NCBI RefSeq assembly: GCF_000518485.1
Contig: NZ_KI912443.1
Location: 341,725-374,382 of the forward strand
Length of the DNA stretch: 32,658 nucleotides
Direction of reading: 5' to 3'
Origin: Olleya marilimosa CAM030
Lineage (GTDB): Bacteria; Bacteroidota; Bacteroidia; Flavobacteriales; Flavobacteriaceae
The translations under genes and the position numbers were made by a program. This document shows, piece by piece, positions 1 through 8,090 of this stretch; within the stretch, counting starts at the first letter, position 1, and each line of letters opens with the position of its first letter. The notes below the pieces were generated by a model. The model was not told the DNA's origin and ran no database searches. It saw nothing but the letters and a program-made list of their open reading frames with translations.

Positions 1-2600
1 ATAGCAGTTTCGTTAGCGGTAATAGCAGAGTTTTGAGTTGTTTGCTCAGCTTCTAAAGCATCAATACTATTTGTGTTAGTTGTAATATTTGCAGTGTTAT
101 CTGCAATAGTCGTGTTTTGTGTGATTTGCTCAGCTTCTAAAGCATCAATACTATCTGTATTTGTTGTAATATTTGCAGTATTGTCTGCAATAGTAGTGTT
201 CTGCGTGATTTGCTCAGCTTCTAAAGCATCAATATCATCAGCGTTCTCTGTGATTTGAGATTGCAATGCTGAATCATCAAAAGGTGTGACGCTTAAATCG
301 AAGTCGTTACCATTAGCAGAAACCGTAACAGAACCATCCGTTGACTCTACAGTTTGTAACTCGTTAGTTGCGTCTGTATCTTCATCAGTAGTAATGTGGT
401 TCGCAATAGCAGTTTCGTTAGCAGTTATAGCAGAGTTTTGCGTGATTTGTTCAGCTTCTAAAGCGTCAATACTATCTGTGTTGGTTGTAATATTTGCAGT
501 ATTATCTGCAATAGTTGTGTTTTGTGTGATTTGTTCTGCTTCGATAGCATCAATATCGTCTGCATTTTCTGTGATTTGAGATTGAAGCGCAGCATCATCA
601 AAAGGTGTTACGCTTAAATCAAAGTCGTTACCATTAGCAGAAACCGTAACAGAACCATCAGTAGATTCTACCGTTTGAATTTCATTAGTTGCATCAGTAT
701 CTTCATCAGCAGTAATATGGTCAGCAATTGCAGTTTCGTTGGCAGTAATAGCAGAGTTTTGTGTGATTTGCTCAGCTTCTAAAGCGTCAATACTATCTGT
801 GTTAGTTGTAATATTTGCAGAGTTATCTGCAATAGTAGTGTTTTGTGTGATTTGTTCTGCTTCGATAGCATCAATATCGTCTGCATTTTCTGTGATTTGA
901 GATTGCAATGCTGTATCATCAAAAGGTGTTACGCTTAAATCGAAGTCATTACCATTAGCAGAAACCGTAACAGAACCATTAGTAGATTCTACCGTTTGAA
1001 TTTCATTAGTTGCGTCTGTATCTTCATCAGTAGTAATGTGGTCAGCAATAGCAGTTTCGTTAGTAGTTATAGCTGAGTTTTGCGTGATTTGTTCAGCTTC
1101 TAAAGCATCAATACTATCTGTGTTAGTTGTAATATTTGCAGTATTGTCTGCAATAGTTGTGTTTTGTGTGATTTGTTCGGCTTCAATCGCATCAATATCA
1201 TCTGCGTTTTGTGTGATTTGAGATTGCAATGCTGTATCATCAAAAAGTGTGACGCTTAAATCGAAGTCGTTACCATTAGCAGTTACAGCAACAGAACCAT
1301 CAGTAGATTCTACCGTTTGAATTTCATTAGTTGCGTCTGTATCTTCATCAGCAGTAATGTGGTCAGCAATAGCAGTTTCGTTAGCAGTAATAGCAGAGTT
1401 TTGCGTGATTTGCTCAGCTTCTAAAGCGTCAATACTATCTGTGTTAGTTGTAATATTTGCAGTATTATCTGCAATAGTTGTGTTTTGTGTGATTTGCTCA
1501 GCTTCGATAGCATCAATATCATCAGCGTTTTGTGTGATTTGAGATTGCAATGCTGTATCATCAAAAGGTATGACGCTTAAATCAAAGTCGTTACCATTAG
1601 CAGAAACCGTAACAGAACCATCAGTAGATTCTACCGTTTGTAACTCGTTAGTAGCATCAGTATCTTCATCAGCAGTAATGTGGTCAGCAATAGCAGTTTC
1701 GTTAGCGGTAATAGCAGAGTTTTGAGTTGTTTGCTCAGCTTCTAAAGCATCAATACTATTTGTGTTAGTTGTAATATTTGCAGTATTGTCAGCTATAGTT
1801 GTATTTTGAGTAATCTGTTCTGCTACAATAGCATCAATATCATCAGCGTTTTGTGTGATTTGAGATTGCAATGCTGTATCATCAAAAGGTGTTACGCTTA
1901 AATCAAAGTCGTTACCATTAGCAGAAACCGTAACAGAGCCATCAGTTGACTCTACCGTTTGAATTTCATTAGTTGCGTCTGTATCTTCATCAGCAGTAAT
2001 GTGATCAGCAATAGCAGTTTGATTAGCAGTAATAGCAGTGTTTTGAGTTGTTTGCTCAGCTTCTAAAGCGTCAATACTATTTGTGTTAGTTGTGATGTTT
2101 GCAGTATTATCTGCAATAGATGTATTTTGAGTAATCTGTTCGGCTTCAATCGCATCAATATCATCTGCATTTTCTGTGATTTGAGATTGGAGTGCAGTAT
2201 CATCAAAAGGTGTTACACTTAAATCAAAGTCGTTACCATTAACAGAAACCGTAACAGAGCCATCAGTAGATTCTACCGTTTGTAATTCGTTAGTTGCATC
2301 AGTATCTTCATCAGTAGTAATATGGTCAGCAATAGCAGTTTCGTTAGCAGTTATAGCAGAGTTTTGTGTGATCTGCTCAGCTACTAAAGCATCAATACTA
2401 TTTGTGTTAGTTGTAATATTTGCAGTATTGTCTGCAATAGTTGTGTTTTGTGTGATTTGTTCTGCTTCGATAGCATCAATATCATCAGCGTTCTCTGTGA
2501 TTTGAGATTGCAGTGCAGTATCATCAAAAGGTGTGACGCTTAAATCGAAGTCATTACCATTAGCAGAAACCGTAACAGAACCATCCGTTGACTCTACAGT
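1..2600 (-). repeat. 321-bp tandem repeat array, distal block (8 units plus a partial)
   Basis: The landmark cgcttaaatc, or its one-base variant, recurs at 290, 611, 932, 1253, 1574, 1895, 2216 and 2537, exactly 321 bp apart each time (107 codons, in frame). In protein order each unit has a NELQTVESTDGSVTVSANG strand-like part, a FDDTALQSQITENADDID part, and two EAEQITQN helical modules 84 bp (28 residues, four heptads) apart. It ends in ANETAIADH and a TDEDTDAT linker. Units are near identical and differ mainly by single-base changes. The leftmost visible unit carries a third EAEQ module, an 84-bp expansion. Confidence 0.9.
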
Positions 2601-5330
2601 TTGTAACTCGTTAGTAGTGTCATTATCATTATCAGCTATAGAGAACGTAGTAGAGACATTATCTTCATTTATATAAGTAAATGTTTGGTTTCCGTTGTCT
2701 GTAAGTGAAGTTGTAGTTTCTAAGGCTGAAACATCAATTGTGATTGGGTTTCCGTCATTATTACTAAATGTATAAGTTCCATCAGTGTTTTCGGTTAAAG
2801 TAGCTTTACTAACTATATCAATAGTTCCATTAGGTTTTATTAAGCTAAACGTCCCGTTATTATTATCAATTAATTGAATATTATCTACATAAGATTTAGG
2901 GGTTGCATCAGTTGCATTAATAGGACTTCCAAGATCAGTAACAGTATTCCCATTCATGTCTAAATTTCCAACCATCGTGTCTCCTGTAACATTTACATAT
3001 CTTGGATCGTATAATGCTGCATTAAAAGGGTCGATTGCAATCCATTCCATGTTATCTGCATCATATATGTATGTGTTTCCTACTTGAGCAGGATCTGGAG
3101 CGTCGCTATTTACCACATATATATCTCCTTCTTGAGGTGTTCCTCCAATTTCAATAGTTCCAAAATCTCCAGTTGTTGTTGTAGGACCAGTGTATACGTT
3201 TCCAATTGGAATATTTACATTACCACTTTCGTCAGGAACGCTTCCGTTAACAGTTGCTACTCTTGGTCCATAAACCCATTGTGAACCATCCCAATATATT
3301 TCGTCATTAGCATTTACTCCATCTGCAAACATAGGAAGTGTGATTTGTCCAGTTAAGTCAACAACATTTCCGAAAGTTGCTGGATTAGATAAAACTAATT
3401 CAGGACCATTTAGCGAAATGTCTTGTAACTCGTTAGTAGCATCAGTGTCTTCATCAGCAGTAATATGGTCAGCAATAGCAGTTTGATTAGCAGTAATAGC
3501 AGAGTTTTGTGTGATTTGTTCAGCTTCTAAAACGTCAATACTATCTGTGTTTGTTGTAATATTTGCAGTATTGTCTGCAATAGTTGTGTTTTGAGTAATC
3601 TGTTCTGCTTCGATAGCATCAATATCATCTGCGTTTTGTGTGATTTGAGATTGCAATGCTGTATCATCAAAAGGTGTTACGCTTAAATCAAAATCGTTAC
3701 CATTAGCGGTAACAGCAACAGAACCATCCGTTGACTCTACAGTTTGTAACTCGTTAGTAGCATCAGTATCTTCATCAGCAGTAATATGGTCAGCAATAGC
3801 AGTTTGATTAGCAGTAATAGCGGTATTTTGAGTTGTTTGCTCAGCTTCTAAAGCGTCAATACTATCTGTGTTTGTTGTAATATTTGCAGTATTATCTGTA
3901 ATAGTTGAGTTTTGCGTAACCTGCTCAGATTCAATCGCATCAATATCATCAGCGTTCTCTGTGATTTGAGATTGCAGTGCAGTATCATCAAAAGGTGTTA
4001 CGCTTAAATCAAAGTCGTTACCATTAGCAGAAACCGTAACAGAGCCATCAGTTGACTCTACAGTTTGTAACTCGTTAGTTGCATCAGTGTCTTCATCAGT
4101 AGTAATATGGTCAGCAATTGCAGTTTCGTTAGCAGTAATAGCAGAGTTTTGCGTGATTTGCTCAGCTTCTAGAGCGTCAATACTATCTGTGTTTGTTGTA
4201 ATATTTGCAGTATTGTCTGCAATAGTTGTGTTTTGTGTGATTTGTTCGGCTTCAATAGCTTCAATATCATCAGCGTTCTCTGTGATTTGAGATTGCAATG
4301 CTGTATCATCAAAAGGTGTTACGCTTAAATCGAAGTCGTTACCATTAGCAGAAACCGTAACAGAGCCATCAGTAGATTCTACCGTTTGTAATTCGTTAGT
4401 TGCATCAGTGTCTTCATCAGTAGTAATGTGGTCAGCAATAGCAGTTTCGTTAGCGGTAATAGCAGTATTTTGAGTTGATTGCTCAGCTTCTAAAGCGTCA
4501 ATACTATCTGTGTTTGTTGTAATATTTGCAGTATTGTCTGCAATAGTTGTGTTTTGTGTGATTTGTTCGGCTTCAATCGCATCAATATCGTCTGCATTTT
4601 CTGTGATTTGAGATTGCAATGCTGTATCATCAAAAGGTGTTATGCTTAAATCAAAGTCGTTACCATTAGCAGAAACTGTAACAGAGCCATCAGTAGATTC
4701 TACAGTTTGTAACTCGTTAGTTGCATCAGTATCTTCATCAGTAGTAATATGGTCAGCAATAGCAGTTTGGTTAGCAGTAATAGCAGAGTTTTGCGTGATT
4801 TGCTCAGCTTCTAAATTGTTAATGTTAGCAGTATTAGTTGCAACTTCAGCACTTTCATCTAACGATGATAGATCAGCAGTAATAGTTCCGCCAGCATCAG
4901 TTAATTCTAAATTTGTGCCATTAAGGTTTAAACCTGTGTTAAGCTCGTTAGTGCTATCCGAATCAGCATCACTAAAAGAAATTGTGGTGTCTAATCCAGA
5001 TTCGTCTGTATAGGTAAACGTACCATCGTTATTTGATACGATTGATGTAACCGTTTCATTAGCCATAACATCAACACACAAGCTATTCCAAGCATTGTTG
5101 TTATATTGAAATAAACAGTCTTCATCTGTATTATACGCTATTGCACCTTCAAGAGGTGTTATAGCGTTCATTTGGGCTGTTGTAATCCTTGTAACAACAA
5201 GTGTTTTGGTCGTGCTTTCTAATTCAAGGACTGAATTTTGATCAATATCCTGTGGATTTTCACCAATCTTAACTTGTGCAAACACGTTAGTCGTGATTAG
5301 GATGGCTAAAAGAAGTAGAATTTTTTTCAT
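1..5330 (-). CDS. Giant repetitive secreted fibre/adhesin-like protein, C-terminus beyond window
   Basis: Reading the minus strand from the ATG at 5330, the frame stays open to the left edge (1776 codons visible, no stop), so the gene is 3'-truncated by the window. Residues 1-19 form a signal peptide (MKKILLLLAILITTNVFAQ). Residues about 20-90 resemble the head found on many Bacteroidota surface proteins (LELESTTKTLVVTRITTAQM, then an AYNTDEDCL segment). Residues about 92-165 carry a GTFTYTDESG-type module. A first array of 107-residue repeats follows (about 168-636), then a 274-residue phage-fibre-like insert (637-910), then a second array to the edge. The repeats are rich in Asn, Thr, Asp, Ala and Ile with almost no Cys or aromatics, as in extended fibres. 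Promoter and C-terminal sorting signal are not visible. A surface fibre or adhesin role is inferred from architecture; no enzymatic domain is seen. Confidence 0.85.
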   Translation of the reverse strand, partial: MKKILLLLAILITTNVFAQVKIGENPQDIDQNSVLELESTTKTLVVTRITTAQMNAITPLEGAIAYNTDEDCLFQYNNNAWNSLCVDVMANETVTSIVSNNDGTFTYTDESGLDTTISFSDADSDSTNELNTGLNLNGTNLELTDAGGTITADLSSLDESAEVATNTANINNLEAEQITQNSAITANQTAIADHITTDEDTDATNELQTVESTDGSVTVSANGNDFDLSITPFDDTALQSQITENADDIDAIEAEQITQNTTIADNTANITTNTDSIDALEAEQSTQNTAITANETAIADHITTDEDTDATNELQTVESTDGSVTVSANGNDFDLSVTPFDDTALQSQITENADDIEAIEAEQITQNTTIADNTANITTNTDSIDALEAEQITQNSAITANETAIADHITTDEDTDATNELQTVESTDGSVTVSANGNDFDLSVTPFDDTALQSQITENADDIDAIESEQVTQNSTITDNTANITTNTDSIDALEAEQTTQNTAITANQTAIADHITADEDTDATNELQTVESTDGSVAVTANGNDFDLSVTPFDDTALQSQITQNADDIDAIEAEQITQNTTIADNTANITTNTDSIDVLEAEQITQNSAITANQTAIADHITADEDTDATNELQDISLNGPELVLSNPATFGNVVDLTGQITLPMFADGVNANDEIYWDGSQWVYGPRVATVNGSVPDESGNVNIPIGNVYTGPTTTTGDFGTIEIGGTPQEGDIYVVNSDAPDPAQVGNTYIYDADNMEWIAIDPFNAALYDPRYVNVTGDTMVGNLDMNGNTVTDLGSPINATDATPKSYVDNIQLIDNNNGTFSLIKPNGTIDIVSKATLTENTDGTYTFSNNDGNPITIDVSALETTTSLTDNGNQTFTYINEDNVSTTFSIADNDNDTTNELQTVESTDGSVTVSANGNDFDLSVTPFDDTALQSQITENADDIDAIEAEQITQNTTIADNTANITTNTNSIDALVAEQITQNSAITANETAIADHITTDEDTDATNELQTVESTDGSVTVSVNGNDFDLSVTPFDDTALQSQITENADDIDAIEAEQITQNTSIADNTANITTNTNSIDALEAEQTTQNTAITANQTAIADHITADEDTDATNEIQTVESTDGSVTVSANGNDFDLSVTPFDDTALQSQITQNADDIDAIVAEQITQNTTIADNTANITTNTNSIDALEAEQTTQNSAITANETAIADHITADEDTDATNELQTVESTDGSVTVSANGNDFDLSVIPFDDTALQSQITQNADDIDAIEAEQITQNTTIADNTANITTNTDSIDALEAEQITQNSAITANETAIADHITADEDTDATNEIQTVESTDGSVAVTANGNDFDLSVTLFDDTALQSQITQNADDIDAIEAEQITQNTTIADNTANITTNTDSIDALEAEQITQNSAITTNETAIADHITTDEDTDATNEIQTVESTNGSVTVSANGNDFDLSVTPFDDTALQSQITENADDIDAIEAEQITQNTTIADNSANITTNTDSIDALEAEQITQNSAITANETAIADHITADEDTDATNEIQTVESTDGSVTVSANGNDFDLSVTPFDDAALQSQITENADDIDAIEAEQITQNTTIADNTANITTNTDSIDALEAEQITQNSAITANETAIANHITTDEDTDATNELQTVESTDGSVTVSANGNDFDLSVTPFDDSALQSQITENADDIDALEAEQITQNTTIADNTANITTNTDSIDALEAEQITQNTTIADNTANITTNTNSIDALEAEQTTQNSAITANETA
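2601..3422 (-). other. In-frame 274-residue phage tail-fibre-like insert between the two repeat arrays
   Basis: The spacing of the repeat landmark jumps from 321 to 1143 bp here, which is 321 plus 822, so 274 codons sit between two otherwise consecutive repeat boundaries. Both borders fall directly after NELQ. The insert reads, in order, a DGSQWVYGPR segment, VNGSVPDESGNVNIPIG, GTPQEGDIYVV and an ALYDPRYVNVTGDTMVG stretch. Then come LDMNGNTVTDLGSP and TPKSYVDN, and finally three NGTF/DGTY/NQTF-type strands. The VNG-x-x-P-D-x-x-G-N-V and L-D-M-N-G-N-x-V-x-D-L-G...YVD patterns are familiar from phage tail fibres. That family link is recognition from memory, not a search. Confidence 0.7.
3423..4826 (-). 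repeat. 321-bp tandem repeat array, signal-peptide-proximal block (4 units plus a partial)
   Basis: The same 107-codon unit as the distal block is present, with its landmark at 3680, 4001, 4322 and 4643 (exactly 321 bp apart). The block begins with an isolated NNLEAEQITQN segment near residue 169 and ends at the NELQ that borders the insert. One unit has STQN in place of ITQN and one has a SEQVTQN variant, so the copies have begun to diverge but keep length and frame. Confidence 0.9.
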
Positions 5331-5460
5331 CTTAGGGGTTTTTGATGTAAACATATGTGTAATAACTCTATATCTACGTAAAAACAGTCTTTTGAGTTTT
5401 ACTTGTCGATGAAGTGTTTGAAATACTCGATAAAAAGCATAATAAAAATTAAAATAATAC

Positions 5461-5501: not shown

Positions 5502-5574
5502 GCGAGAGTAGCTCAGTTGGTAGAGCGTCAGCCTTCCAAGCTGAATGTCGCCAGTTCGAACCTGGTCTCTCGCT
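5502..5574 (+). tRNA. tRNA-Gly (anticodon TCC)
   Basis: A full cloverleaf can be folded by eye. The acceptor stem gcgagag (5502-5508) pairs with ctctcgc (5567-5573), the D-arm is gctc...gagc, the anticodon stem tcagc/gctga encloses loop cttccaa with TCC at 5535-5537, and the T-arm has the ttcgaa loop. The 3' CCA is not encoded, as is usual in this phylum. Confidence 0.97.
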
Positions 5575-5578
5575 CAAA

Positions 5579-5709: not shown

Positions 5710-6417
5710 TTAATTTAATTCATTTAAAAACGTGTCTGTTTCAATTTCATAAGGCTCAGTTCCGTGTTCAAAAACTCTAGCATTTAATTCGCCTTTAAGT
5801 TGTATAGATTGTCCTTTAACTTCTAACCAACTACCTTCCCTAAGTCCAATAACCGGTTGAGTATTAAATTTATGAAACTCCTTAATTCTAGTTTCTCTAG
5901 TTTCTCCCATATGTTTACTAGAAGGGTTAGGATCTAAATAATGAGGATTAATATTAAAAGGCACAAAGCTTAATGTTTTAAAGCTTGGCGGATAAACAAT
6001 TGGCATGTCATTGGTAGTGCACATAGTAAGACCACAAATATTACTTCCAGCACTTGTGCCTAAATAAGGTATACCATTATTTACAGCAGCTTTTAAGGGG
6101 TTGATCAGCTTAAATTTATACAGTGCATTAACTAAAACAAATGTGTTTCCGCCACCAGTAAAAATACCTTTAGCATTTGTAATAGCTTCTATTGGATTTT
6201 TAAATTCGTGTAATCCTTTTACTGTAATACCAATTTTAGCAAAAGCTTTTGCTGCTTTTTTTGTGTATTCATCATGTGTTATACCACTAGGTCTAGCGTA
6301 GGGTACAAAAACAATGTCTTCTATATTTTTAAAATGAAGTTTTAATGTATCTAATAAATAGTCTAAATATTGACCAGAATGAAGTGTTGAAGTACTTGCG
6401 ATTATTAATTGCTTCAT
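5710..6417 (-). CDS. pepE: Dipeptidase E (alpha-aspartyl dipeptidase, family S51)
   Basis: PepE is a cytoplasmic serine peptidase that hydrolyses dipeptides with N-terminal aspartate. The 235-residue length fits the family. The nucleophile elbow GTSAGSN places Ser122, with Asp137 in TNDMPI and His159 in INPHYLD. These are each offset by two from the Salmonella triad Ser120-Asp135-His157. FTGGGNTF (residues 86-93) is the other conserved glycine-rich block. No signal peptide is present. It is a single-gene unit, divergent from the secreted protein gene at 6527 and convergent with tRNA-Gly. The start is the first ATG and gives a normal N-terminus (MKQLIIAST). All key residues are present, so activity is likely. 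Confidence 0.93.
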   Translation of the reverse strand: MKQLIIASTSTLHSGQYLDYLLDTLKLHFKNIEDIVFVPYARPSGITHDEYTKKAAKAFAKIGITVKGLHEFKNPIEAITNAKGIFTGGGNTFVLVNALYKFKLINPLKAAVNNGIPYLGTSAGSNICGLTMCTTNDMPIVYPPSFKTLSFVPFNINPHYLDPNPSSKHMGETRETRIKEFHKFNTQPVIGLREGSWLEVKGQSIQLKGELNARVFEHGTEPYEIETDTFLNELN

Positions 6418-6526: not shown

Positions 6527-7336
6527 ATGAAATCATATATAATTGCATTTTTTCTTTTAGCTTTAAGTTTTGCTAATGCGCAAGACAGTACTAGAGTAGA
6601 GCTTAAAGGTAAGGTTATTGTCGCATCGCCAGATTTAGAGGGTATTACTGTTTATAACTCTTCGTCTAATAAAGGTACAGTAACTAATGCTGACGGAGAG
6701 TTTACTATTAGTGCAAAACTTAATGATAAGATTAGTATTTCGGCATTACAATTTAAGGATTTTACGGTATTAGTGGCTCAGGAGGTTTTAGACTCTAAAC
6801 AAATGAATGTCTTTTTAGTAGAACAAATTAACAAGCTAGATGAGGTTGTTATTTTACCTTATGATTTGTCTGGAGTTTTAGAAGAAGACATTGCAAACAT
6901 CGAAACCTTTAATCCAGATTTAGATGCTATTTATTTTGGAATTGGTGATATAAGTCTTTACGAGTTTGCTGATGATGAATATAGTAAAGTAGAAAATTTA
7001 GCAGCAATGAGTCAGAATGATAGATTGCGATACCAAGCAAACGGAATGTTAATTTTAGGAAGCTTAGTGGATTTGATTTTTAGTAAAAAAAATAAAAATA
7101 AAAAAGAGACAAAAGAAGTCTTATATCAATCAGCATCTTTAAGTGATACATATAACCATAAATATTTTACAGACAATTTTAATATTCCAGAAGCAAAAGT
7201 AGAAGCCTTTATGGTCTATGTAGAAAGTAATAATTTTGATGTTAATTTACTAAACAAAGGTAACGAGATGCAATTAATAGAGCATCTTAACACGCAAAGC
7301 AAAAATTTTTTAAAAGAGAAAGTTGAAAAAAATTAA
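6527..7336 (+). CDS. Secreted protein with carboxypeptidase-regulatory-like N-domain
   Basis: The N-terminus is a signal peptide ending ...LSFANAQ, cleaved near residue 19. Residues about 24-110 read VELKGKV...GITVYNSSS...GTVTNADGEFTI...ISISALQF, the beta-sandwich pattern of carboxypeptidase-regulatory-like (CarboxypepD_reg-like) domains. These are common at the start of Bacteroidota TonB-dependent receptors and envelope proteins. The rest (about 110-269) matches nothing I recognise and has a lysine-rich stretch near residue 190. No receptor barrel or plug follows, so this is a stand-alone envelope protein of unknown role. It overlaps the next gene by 14 bp; the two share the same plan (LDEV after the domain) and look like tandem duplicates. 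Confidence 0.7.
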   Translation: MKSYIIAFFLLALSFANAQDSTRVELKGKVIVASPDLEGITVYNSSSNKGTVTNADGEFTISAKLNDKISISALQFKDFTVLVAQEVLDSKQMNVFLVEQINKLDEVVILPYDLSGVLEEDIANIETFNPDLDAIYFGIGDISLYEFADDEYSKVENLAAMSQNDRLRYQANGMLILGSLVDLIFSKKNKNKKETKEVLYQSASLSDTYNHKYFTDNFNIPEAKVEAFMVYVESNNFDVNLLNKGNEMQLIEHLNTQSKNFLKEKVEKN

Positions 7337-8090
7337 CCTCTTTTTATGTTTTATTTTATTTGTAAGTGTTCAAGCAGCTTACGCTCAGACTGTTGAGTTA
7401 AATGGAACAATTACAGCTGAAGACGATATTGAAAGCATTCATATATTAAATAAAACGTCTTTAACCAATGCAACATCAAGCAAAGACGGAAGCTTTACTA
7501 TTAAGGCTAAATTAAACGATACTATTATATTTTCTGCAGTACAATATACATTACTTACCAAAGTAGTTAGTCAAGAGGATATAACTTCAAAAACAATAGC
7601 AGTCACTTTAAAATTACAAACCAATCAATTAGACGAAGTTTTTTTAAAAAGGTCTTTGTCAGGAAATTTAGAAGACGATTTGTTGCTTCTAGAGGCTAAA
7701 CCAGTAATTAATTTTTATGACGTCGGTATACCTGGTTATCAAGGAAAACAAAAAACATCTGCCGAAAGGGTTTTACATGAAGCAACCACAGGAGGTGGAT
7801 TAATTCCATTAAATCCTTTGCTAAACGGTATATCAGGTCGTACCAAAAAGCTAAAAGAAATTGTAAGACTAGAAAATGATGATGCCTTATTAGTAAGACT
7901 TAAAAATGACTTAAAAGAAGACTTTTTCAAAGACAATCCTTTGGATCAAAAACACCACACAGATTTTTTTTACTTTGTACAAGAAGATCCAGATTTTAGA
8001 AGTGTTTGTAGCAAAAGTAATTTAGATGCTTTAGCTTTTTTTAAAAAGAAATTAGACCAATACAATACTAATTTAGTTACTAAACAATAA
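7323..8090 (+). CDS. Paralogous secreted protein with carboxypeptidase-regulatory-like domain (TTG start)
   Basis: The frame begins at a TTG inside the end of the upstream gene. This start is favoured because it alone gives a complete signal peptide (MKKINLFLCFILFVSVQAAY, then AQ). Residues about 23-105 repeat the plan of the upstream protein: VELNGTI, IHILNKTS, NATSSKDGSFTIKAKLNDTI, ISFSAVQY-like strand, then QLDEVFL. The C-terminal 150 residues share the motif LSGxLExD with the neighbour and are otherwise unrecognised. The 14-bp overlap suggests translational coupling. Function unknown; probably periplasmic or outer-membrane associated. Confidence 0.68.
   Translation: MKKINLFLCFILFVSVQAAYAQTVELNGTITAEDDIESIHILNKTSLTNATSSKDGSFTIKAKLNDTIIFSAVQYTLLTKVVSQEDITSKTIAVTLKLQTNQLDEVFLKRSLSGNLEDDLLLLEAKPVINFYDVGIPGYQGKQKTSAERVLHEATTGGGLIPLNPLLNGISGRTKKLKEIVRLENDDALLVRLKNDLKEDFFKDNPLDQKHHTDFFYFVQEDPDFRSVCSKSNLDALAFFKKKLDQYNTNLVTKQ

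Follow-up and report, generated by a model that had tools for sequence, protein, structure and literature searches.

Phage long tail fibres consist of a constant N-terminal base, a stalk and a C-terminal tip that is swapped, and trimeric autotransporter adhesins (type Vc) have a head-stalk design. The locus described here lies in a stretch of 32,658 nucleotides from Olleya marilimosa CAM030 (contig NZ_KI912443.1), hereafter called the window. It shares with phage long tail fibres the design of base, stalk and tip, an LDMNGN-type motif and, in a gene at the same position elsewhere, a Peptidase_S74 domain, but the fibre gene found here has a signal peptide, a chromosomal site and a type IX partner, and virion genes were not found nearby. 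With type Vc adhesins it has in common the head-stalk design and I-x-x-N steps in the stalk; however, its conserved tip is at the C-terminus, and a YadA-type anchor is judged absent because the fibre C-terminus has no Pfam match.

Cargo of the type IX system (T9SS) is described as bearing its own C-terminal sorting domain (PMC12618676). Type-B substrates leave the translocon on PorP/SprF-like carriers, which apparently anchor them, and in Flavobacterium johnsoniae one carrier serves three type-B substrates that have no carrier gene beside them (PMC9143113, PMC12618676, PMC10994853). SprB/SprF and the other type-B CTD adhesins resemble the present case in the surface type-B CTD and the presumed adhesin role, and orphan substrates without an adjacent sprF gene also exist (PMC9143113, PMC12618676). 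In contrast to SprB, the giant fibre described here is without a CTD, the CTD being located on a separate 382-aa protein, and no member of the PorP/SprF family was present among the scanned partner neighbours. We found no description of such a fibre/partner gene pair in the open-access (PMC) literature.

Results

The giant fibre gene and its modules

The minus strand of the window carries the following modules of the fibre gene.

3..5330 (-): giant fibre gene, in-window part, 1776 codons, continuing past base 1
5277..5330 (-): signal peptide MKKILLLLAILITTNVFA, read directly and aligned with relatives
5052..5276 (-): N-terminal head (QVKIGENPQDIDQNSVLELEST...YNNNAWNSLC), a module common to the cassette fibre genes
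3429..4712 (-): repeat array 1, four complete 107-residue units
2607..3428 (-): insert of 274 codons with phage tail-fibre-like motifs (VNGSVPDESGNVNI, LDMNGNTVTDLGSP..SYVD)
3..2606 (-): repeat array 2, 107-residue units, seven of them complete and the eighth, an altered one, reaching the N run

By ORF reading, the open frame extends over 3..5354 and runs off the window edge. A start at 5330 (MKKILLLL...) is preferred to the earlier ATG at 5354, since in G152, a genome of the same genus, the homologue begins at the same methionine; the frame proposed in the initial annotation, on the minus strand from 5330 with 1776 in-window codons and continuing past base 1, was confirmed. Direct reading of the signal peptide leads us to expect cleavage before Q, with no lipobox Cys, and lends support to the previous suggestion that the protein is exported. 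The head showed weak similarity to phage protein families, among which two carry the name tail fibre; its sole sequence match among solved structures was noise (E=0.99), and it was modelled poorly (block pLDDT 46-88). ExsA_N (E=7e-14) and similar whole-protein matches of the 1784-residue frame in Pfam, PHROGs and NCBIfam were not taken as domains, and we regard them as sums over the repeats since mostly no single stretch passes.

The strict landmark [LI]QTVEST[DN]GSV was counted 12 times, with 4 copies ahead of the insert and 8 behind it and a spacing of 107 residues in each array, which agrees with the twelve 321-bp landmarks, interrupted by the insert, noted before. Eleven complete units are delimited by landmarks, one of these by a variant landmark, and their mean identity is 93% at the protein and 90% at the DNA level. 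Mismatches among the 11 units fall on third codon positions in 74% and on second positions in 5% of cases, a bias that points to purifying selection on the translated protein. The I-x-x-N count of 104 exceeds the 35 obtained in shuffles, an excess inflated by the repeats, and the stalk coil is not a clean heptad repeat because only 14 of the 103 spacings in the series are exactly 7.

The insert of 274 codons, likewise recognized earlier, maps to window positions 2607-3428 (residues 643-916, numbered from the 5354 start). It matched PHROG 2710 tail fibre (E=2.9e-4), two phage tail-fibre genes (E=3e-4 and 8e-4) and, over 33 residues, one solved tail-fibre chain (E=0.008). The tail-fibre-like insert motifs that had been pointed out are present, and the phage likeness, found by three routes, is weak; all tail-fibre sequence motifs of the fibre gene lie in the insert. 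Its identity to the inserts of two relatives is 94% and 71%, and the second of these (G154) has flanking stalk repeats of a different kind. The insert, being conserved while the flanking repeats differ, looks like a separate module of its own, and the stalk repeats look exchangeable. The protein can be called fibre-like, as had been proposed.

The C-terminal end of the fibre

The start of the window coincides with the end of a 520-N run (contig 341205-341724). On the far side of the run the same frame encodes collagen-like triplets and a 139-residue C-domain, with a stop at contig 340725; continuity of the frame through the run depends on an N stretch whose length and origin are unverified. 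G152 has a gap-free gene of 2270 codons that encodes, in order, the signal peptide, the head, five landmarks, the insert, eleven landmarks, fifteen G-X-Y triplets and the C-domain, and its product is 99% identical to the fibre over the C-terminal 156 residues. In G154, the head, the insert (71%) and the C-domain lie within one 1720-residue frame. An early stop just beyond the window, which the initial annotation held would speak against its reading, is absent: the frame continues, as it does in the long G152 gene.

The collagen-like tract comprises six consecutive readable G-X-Y triplets before the C-domain, compared with the fifteen of G152, and the match of the fibre to Pfam Collagen (E=0.039, 14.1 bits) is under the cut-off of 27.2. 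No Pfam family matched the C-terminal 156 residues at E<=10, and Peptidase_S74 had no match in the C-terminal part. Neither the in-window fibre nor its C-terminal part gave a type IX sorting domain in searches of Pfam and NCBIfam, and the G152 stretch matching the N run has none by reading. The prediction that the C-terminus would carry S74 or a type IX sorting domain was not borne out; instead, we found a collagen-like tract and a conserved domain absent from Pfam, and the type IX signal belongs to the adjoining partner gene and not to the fibre. At locus L191 of G119, the gene immediately before a partner does end in Peptidase_S74 (E=2.5e-16); the contig stops within this gene, and its head is outside the view.

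A type IX substrate is encoded directly behind the fibre

The next gene downstream, which overlaps the fibre stop by 8 bp, encodes the 382-aa partner, the C-terminus of which is CHU_C (PF13585), a type-B type IX signal (E=2.6e-26). SprA, the T9SS marker that was searched, was found in the same genome (2750 bits); with CHU_C and a T9SS, as judged by SprA, the 382-aa partner has the features of a type IX substrate. A homologue from Lacinutrix himadriensis (L086) gave a model with a mean pLDDT of 92.5. Alignment A3 of partner proteins was made from 47 of the 57 counted before the length filter. The genes downstream of the partner encode a GNAT acetyltransferase, VanY, M48 and iPGM, and the PorP/SprF carrier family was not found directly downstream or among the scanned partner neighbours.

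The loci comprised 80 C-domain loci, 18 partner-chosen stretches and 7 others (own genome, genus and one relative). They yielded 86 full-length partner matches, from which 3 duplicates were dropped to leave 83, and the upstream gene was in view for 81. The next upstream gene was a same-strand, head-positive gene in 57 cases, a same-strand frame running off with the head unseen in 11, and head-negative in 13; some of the 13 have variant or unreadable heads by eye, and three have an arabinofuranosidase-like gene in between. The gap between fibre and partner in the 57 + 11 cases has a median of 2.5 bp and is 30 bp or less in 67 of 68, often with an overlap. The partner-chosen stretches provide a fairer test, because the C-domain loci favour head genes by construction. 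These 18 stretches, from 43 full-length partner places, hold 23 partners (22 after removal of one duplicate), and the upstream gene is head-positive in 16, running off in 3 and head-negative in 3, namely L188 (variant head by eye), L179 (arabinofuranosidase-like gene between) and L189 (a divergent partner and true orphan without a fibre). As a control, other CHU_C genes were taken from 20 stretches, and none of the 9 upstream genes in view was head-positive; one of the 9 runs off its stretch, so that 0 of 8 is the firm figure. A gene of about 297-333 codons was seen between fibre and partner, or one further up, in L101, L110, L129, L134, L160 and L179; that of L101, the only one scanned, resembles the catalytic domain of arabinofuranosidase B (PF09206, E=2.7e-5), with a match slightly short of the cut-off.

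With near-ties left out, the partner's similarity could be predicted from that of the head in 33 of 38 comparisons, and only 4 of 500 within-genome swaps scored as high as the observed pairing of head and partner; the comparisons come from 8 multi-cassette genomes and are non-independent.

Compared by BLAST (E 1e-4) over their C-terminal 130 residues, the 81 upstream proteins form 15 groups; this grouping does not prove the groups unrelated, L139 resembling the FFTVTDF group by eye. Four of them contain no fibres but arabinofuranosidase-like genes, two unrelated proteins and one spurious frame, and among the 11 fibre groups 9 have a member with the head in view, the L139 and L191 S74 groups running off with the head unseen. 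By size, the C-domain group comes first (42 members), followed by a coiled 'HLPGV' cap (10) and 'FFTVTDF' (7). About ten tip groups thus seem to exist among the fibre-like genes with the common N-terminal head. In 25 cases the partner is preceded by a short C-domain gene. The gene one further upstream has an IIQL...EFMFTV-type tip in 21 of them, 18 of these 21 being spaced at -4 to 11 bp, and its head is in view in 8. By this gene order, a short-C-domain cassette is read as a long and a short fibre ahead of one partner; in the window's gene, the C-domain is carried by the long fibre itself.

The C-domain family

Starting from an alignment of 22, the C-domain search confirmed 160 relatives in the genome collection and returned the best 80 of these, nearly all from genera recognised as Flavobacteriaceae. 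A complete frame of 205-300 residues was present at 62 of these 80 loci, and 57 of the 62 eligible short proteins were used for alignment A2. The short proteins that were inspected consist of a signal-peptide-like stretch, a head and the C-domain; at other loci a stalk lies between head and C-domain. These Flavobacteriaceae proteins have the same C-domain as the giant fibre and, in those inspected, a related head, but they are without the long stalk and are about a tenth of its length. Short head and C-domain genes free of a partner were observed beside a conserved gene of about 513 residues in L089, L099, L109, L111, L113, L119, L145, L152, L156, L157 and L164. C-domain proteins that share 61% and 55% identity with the query occur on MAG contigs titled Saccharospirillaceae (L120) and Sulfurovum (L144), which are possibly mis-binned.

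The L089 model has a beta-rich C-domain, most blocks past residue 121 having a pLDDT above 90, and a poorly defined head. By sequence, neither the C-domain family nor a Bizionia giant fibre had a relative among solved structures, and neither the head and C-domain model nor the partner model matched a solved structure at E<=0.001; the best Foldseek hits in the PDB, fungal galectins for the former (E 0.0081) and PorZ for the latter (0.0037), were rejected, with TM-scores near 0.2. Against BFVD, 20 Foldseek matches passed E 0.001 (15 phage-named, 3 unnamed and 2 from eukaryotic viruses), which are taken as a hint only because their TM-scores to the model are 0.17-0.36. The C-domain had no match in 50,697 phage records; distant relatives, 27-35% identical, were found on 8 viral contigs, several with three tandem copies by eye. 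A 'long tail fibre receptor-binding tip' from Bizionia argentinensis was reportedly described by Pellizza in 2020.

In the family sample of 149 genomes, the partner was detected at E<1e-60 in at least 28 and the C-domain in 18. The two occur together in at least 8 of the 149 (3.4 expected, P=0.007). Ten of the 18 C-domain genomes have no full-length partner, their C-domains being always in short frames of 227-281 codons, and 20 of the 28 partner genomes have no C-domain; neither strictly needs the other, because each occurs alone. The phylum-wide sample had the partner at E<1e-60 in at least 8 of 296 genomes, all 8 of the same family. All partner counts are lower bounds, with at most 12 (family sample) or 6 (phylum sample) candidates scored per genome, and weaker partner-like matches in the family sample had E of about 1e-55 to 1e-35.

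A fixed chromosomal site in the genus

Two features beside the fibre gene identify the site of the cassette.

5502..5575 (+): tRNA-Gly (TCC), marking the cassette site in the genus
5710..6417 (-): Peptidase S51 gene, a fixed flank of occupied and empty sites, outside the cassette

The partner is present in 5 of 10 genus genomes, and in the remaining 5 the site beside tRNA-Gly is empty, with the peptidase S51 gene, tRNA-Gly(TCC), a gene of 141 to 147 residues, an acetyltransferase gene and VanY within about 3 kb. The 141-residue protein is read as also being an acetyltransferase. The C-domain is present in 6 of the 10, the sixth genome (G157) having it elsewhere in a 253-codon frame, so that presence or absence of partner and C-domain agree in 9 of 10 (Fisher P=0.048). 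In G000, G152 and G154 the fibre and partner genes lie between the tRNA and VanY, and in G150 and G151, both drafts, the flanks are split between contigs, as expected if the repeats broke the assembly. On reading, an integrase did not stand out at the site. The gene of 141 to 147 residues, seen in the five cassette-free genomes (L241-L245), is missing at the site in G000 and G152, as if it and the cassette were alternative alleles. A Pfam scan of 20 flanking genes detected no phage, baseplate or sheath family, in keeping with the chromosomal location that had been assumed.

Window positions 6527-8090 encode two adjacent CarbopepD_reg_2-like proteins of 269 and 255 aa, and similar-looking opposite-strand genes of about that size flank cassettes in other genera (e.g. 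L174, L181), hinting at a chromosomal neighbourhood common across genera. In several drafts (L078/L079, L080/L081, L009), contigs or N runs end inside fibre genes; since fibre genes break draft assemblies, giant fibres may be under-counted.

Discussion

The export signal, the common head, the variable stalk and tip, the T9SS partner, the tight coupling and co-variation of the two genes and the presence or absence of the cassette at one site can all be read from the sequence. On balance we favour, with some reserve, the interpretation that the window gene encodes the long fibre of a two- or three-gene surface-fibre cassette on the chromosomes of Flavobacteriaceae, with the T9SS partner keeping this fibre at the surface. 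The fibre is probably an exported, trimeric adhesion fibre with a constant base, an extendable stalk and an exchangeable tip. It would be exported by Sec and trimerise through its coil-like repeats and collagen-like neck, and its head would dock on the partner. The partner, which would be an orphan type-B substrate in that no carrier gene was found beside it, would cross the outer membrane by the T9SS with a shared SprF-like shuttle and keep the fibre at the cell surface, where the C-domain may bind a target on a surface or another cell, as a phage fibre tip does. The weakest step in this scheme is the predicted crossing of the outer membrane by a fibre without a sorting domain. More tentatively, and with the odds somewhat against it, the pair could represent two-component export and display, in which a small type-B substrate encoded directly behind the giant fibre carries or anchors it, with tips swapped phage-style.

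Four other explanations were considered. The fibre and its type IX partner could be co-expressed surface proteins that make no contact, the fibre surfacing otherwise or staying periplasmic, which would suit a fibre without a sorting domain, a C-domain family that occurs without the partner in 10 of 18 genomes, and the intervening genes of L101, L110 and L179. We consider this unlikely, given the gap of 30 bp or less, often an overlap, in 67 of 68 cases and the co-variation of head and partner within genomes. There is little to recommend assembly of the fibre into a prophage, a tailocin or an extracellular contractile injection system: the signal peptide, the secreted partner, the 20 flanking genes scanned without a phage, baseplate or sheath family, the same chromosomal site from the S51 to the VanY genes across the genus and the absence of C-domain matches in the phage records argue against a tail fibre of this sort, even though the fibre-like insert, the weak likeness of the head to phage families (two named tail fibre), the S74 domain in the same-position gene of L191 and the distant C-domain relatives on 8 viral contigs are what such a fibre would lead one to expect.

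A common N-terminus joined to a variable C-terminus would also fit a polymorphic contact-dependent effector, whose constant head and stalk would deliver variable C-terminal toxins. Ten C-terminal stretches were compared with Pfam, giving one S74, one weakly TNF-like, one separate arabinofuranosidase-like gene and mostly unclear results, and none of the ten matched a toxin family; moreover, the gene behind the fibre encodes a secreted partner and not a small immunity protein, and we regard an effector as very improbable. The joining of two genes by the 520-N run, with a C-domain foreign to the fibre, draws on the unverified length and origin of the N stretch that the frame crosses, but it is already contradicted by the full G152 gene, which has no N and is 99% identical over the last 156 residues, and by G154, which carries head, insert and C-domain in one frame; such an artefact is hardly credible.

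We return to the interpretation of a surface-fibre cassette with a T9SS partner. With a conserved pair of this kind, the display repertoire of the T9SS would be wider than cargo with its own sorting domain, the sorting domain being on the small partner and none on the fibre. A common head with varied stalks and tips would mirror, in cells, the modularity of phage tail fibres, and the variable tips would be a source of new binding domains. Should the more tentative reading of two-component export and display hold, marine Flavobacteriaceae would own a chromosomal 'tail fibre', polymorphic and used to select surfaces or partners.
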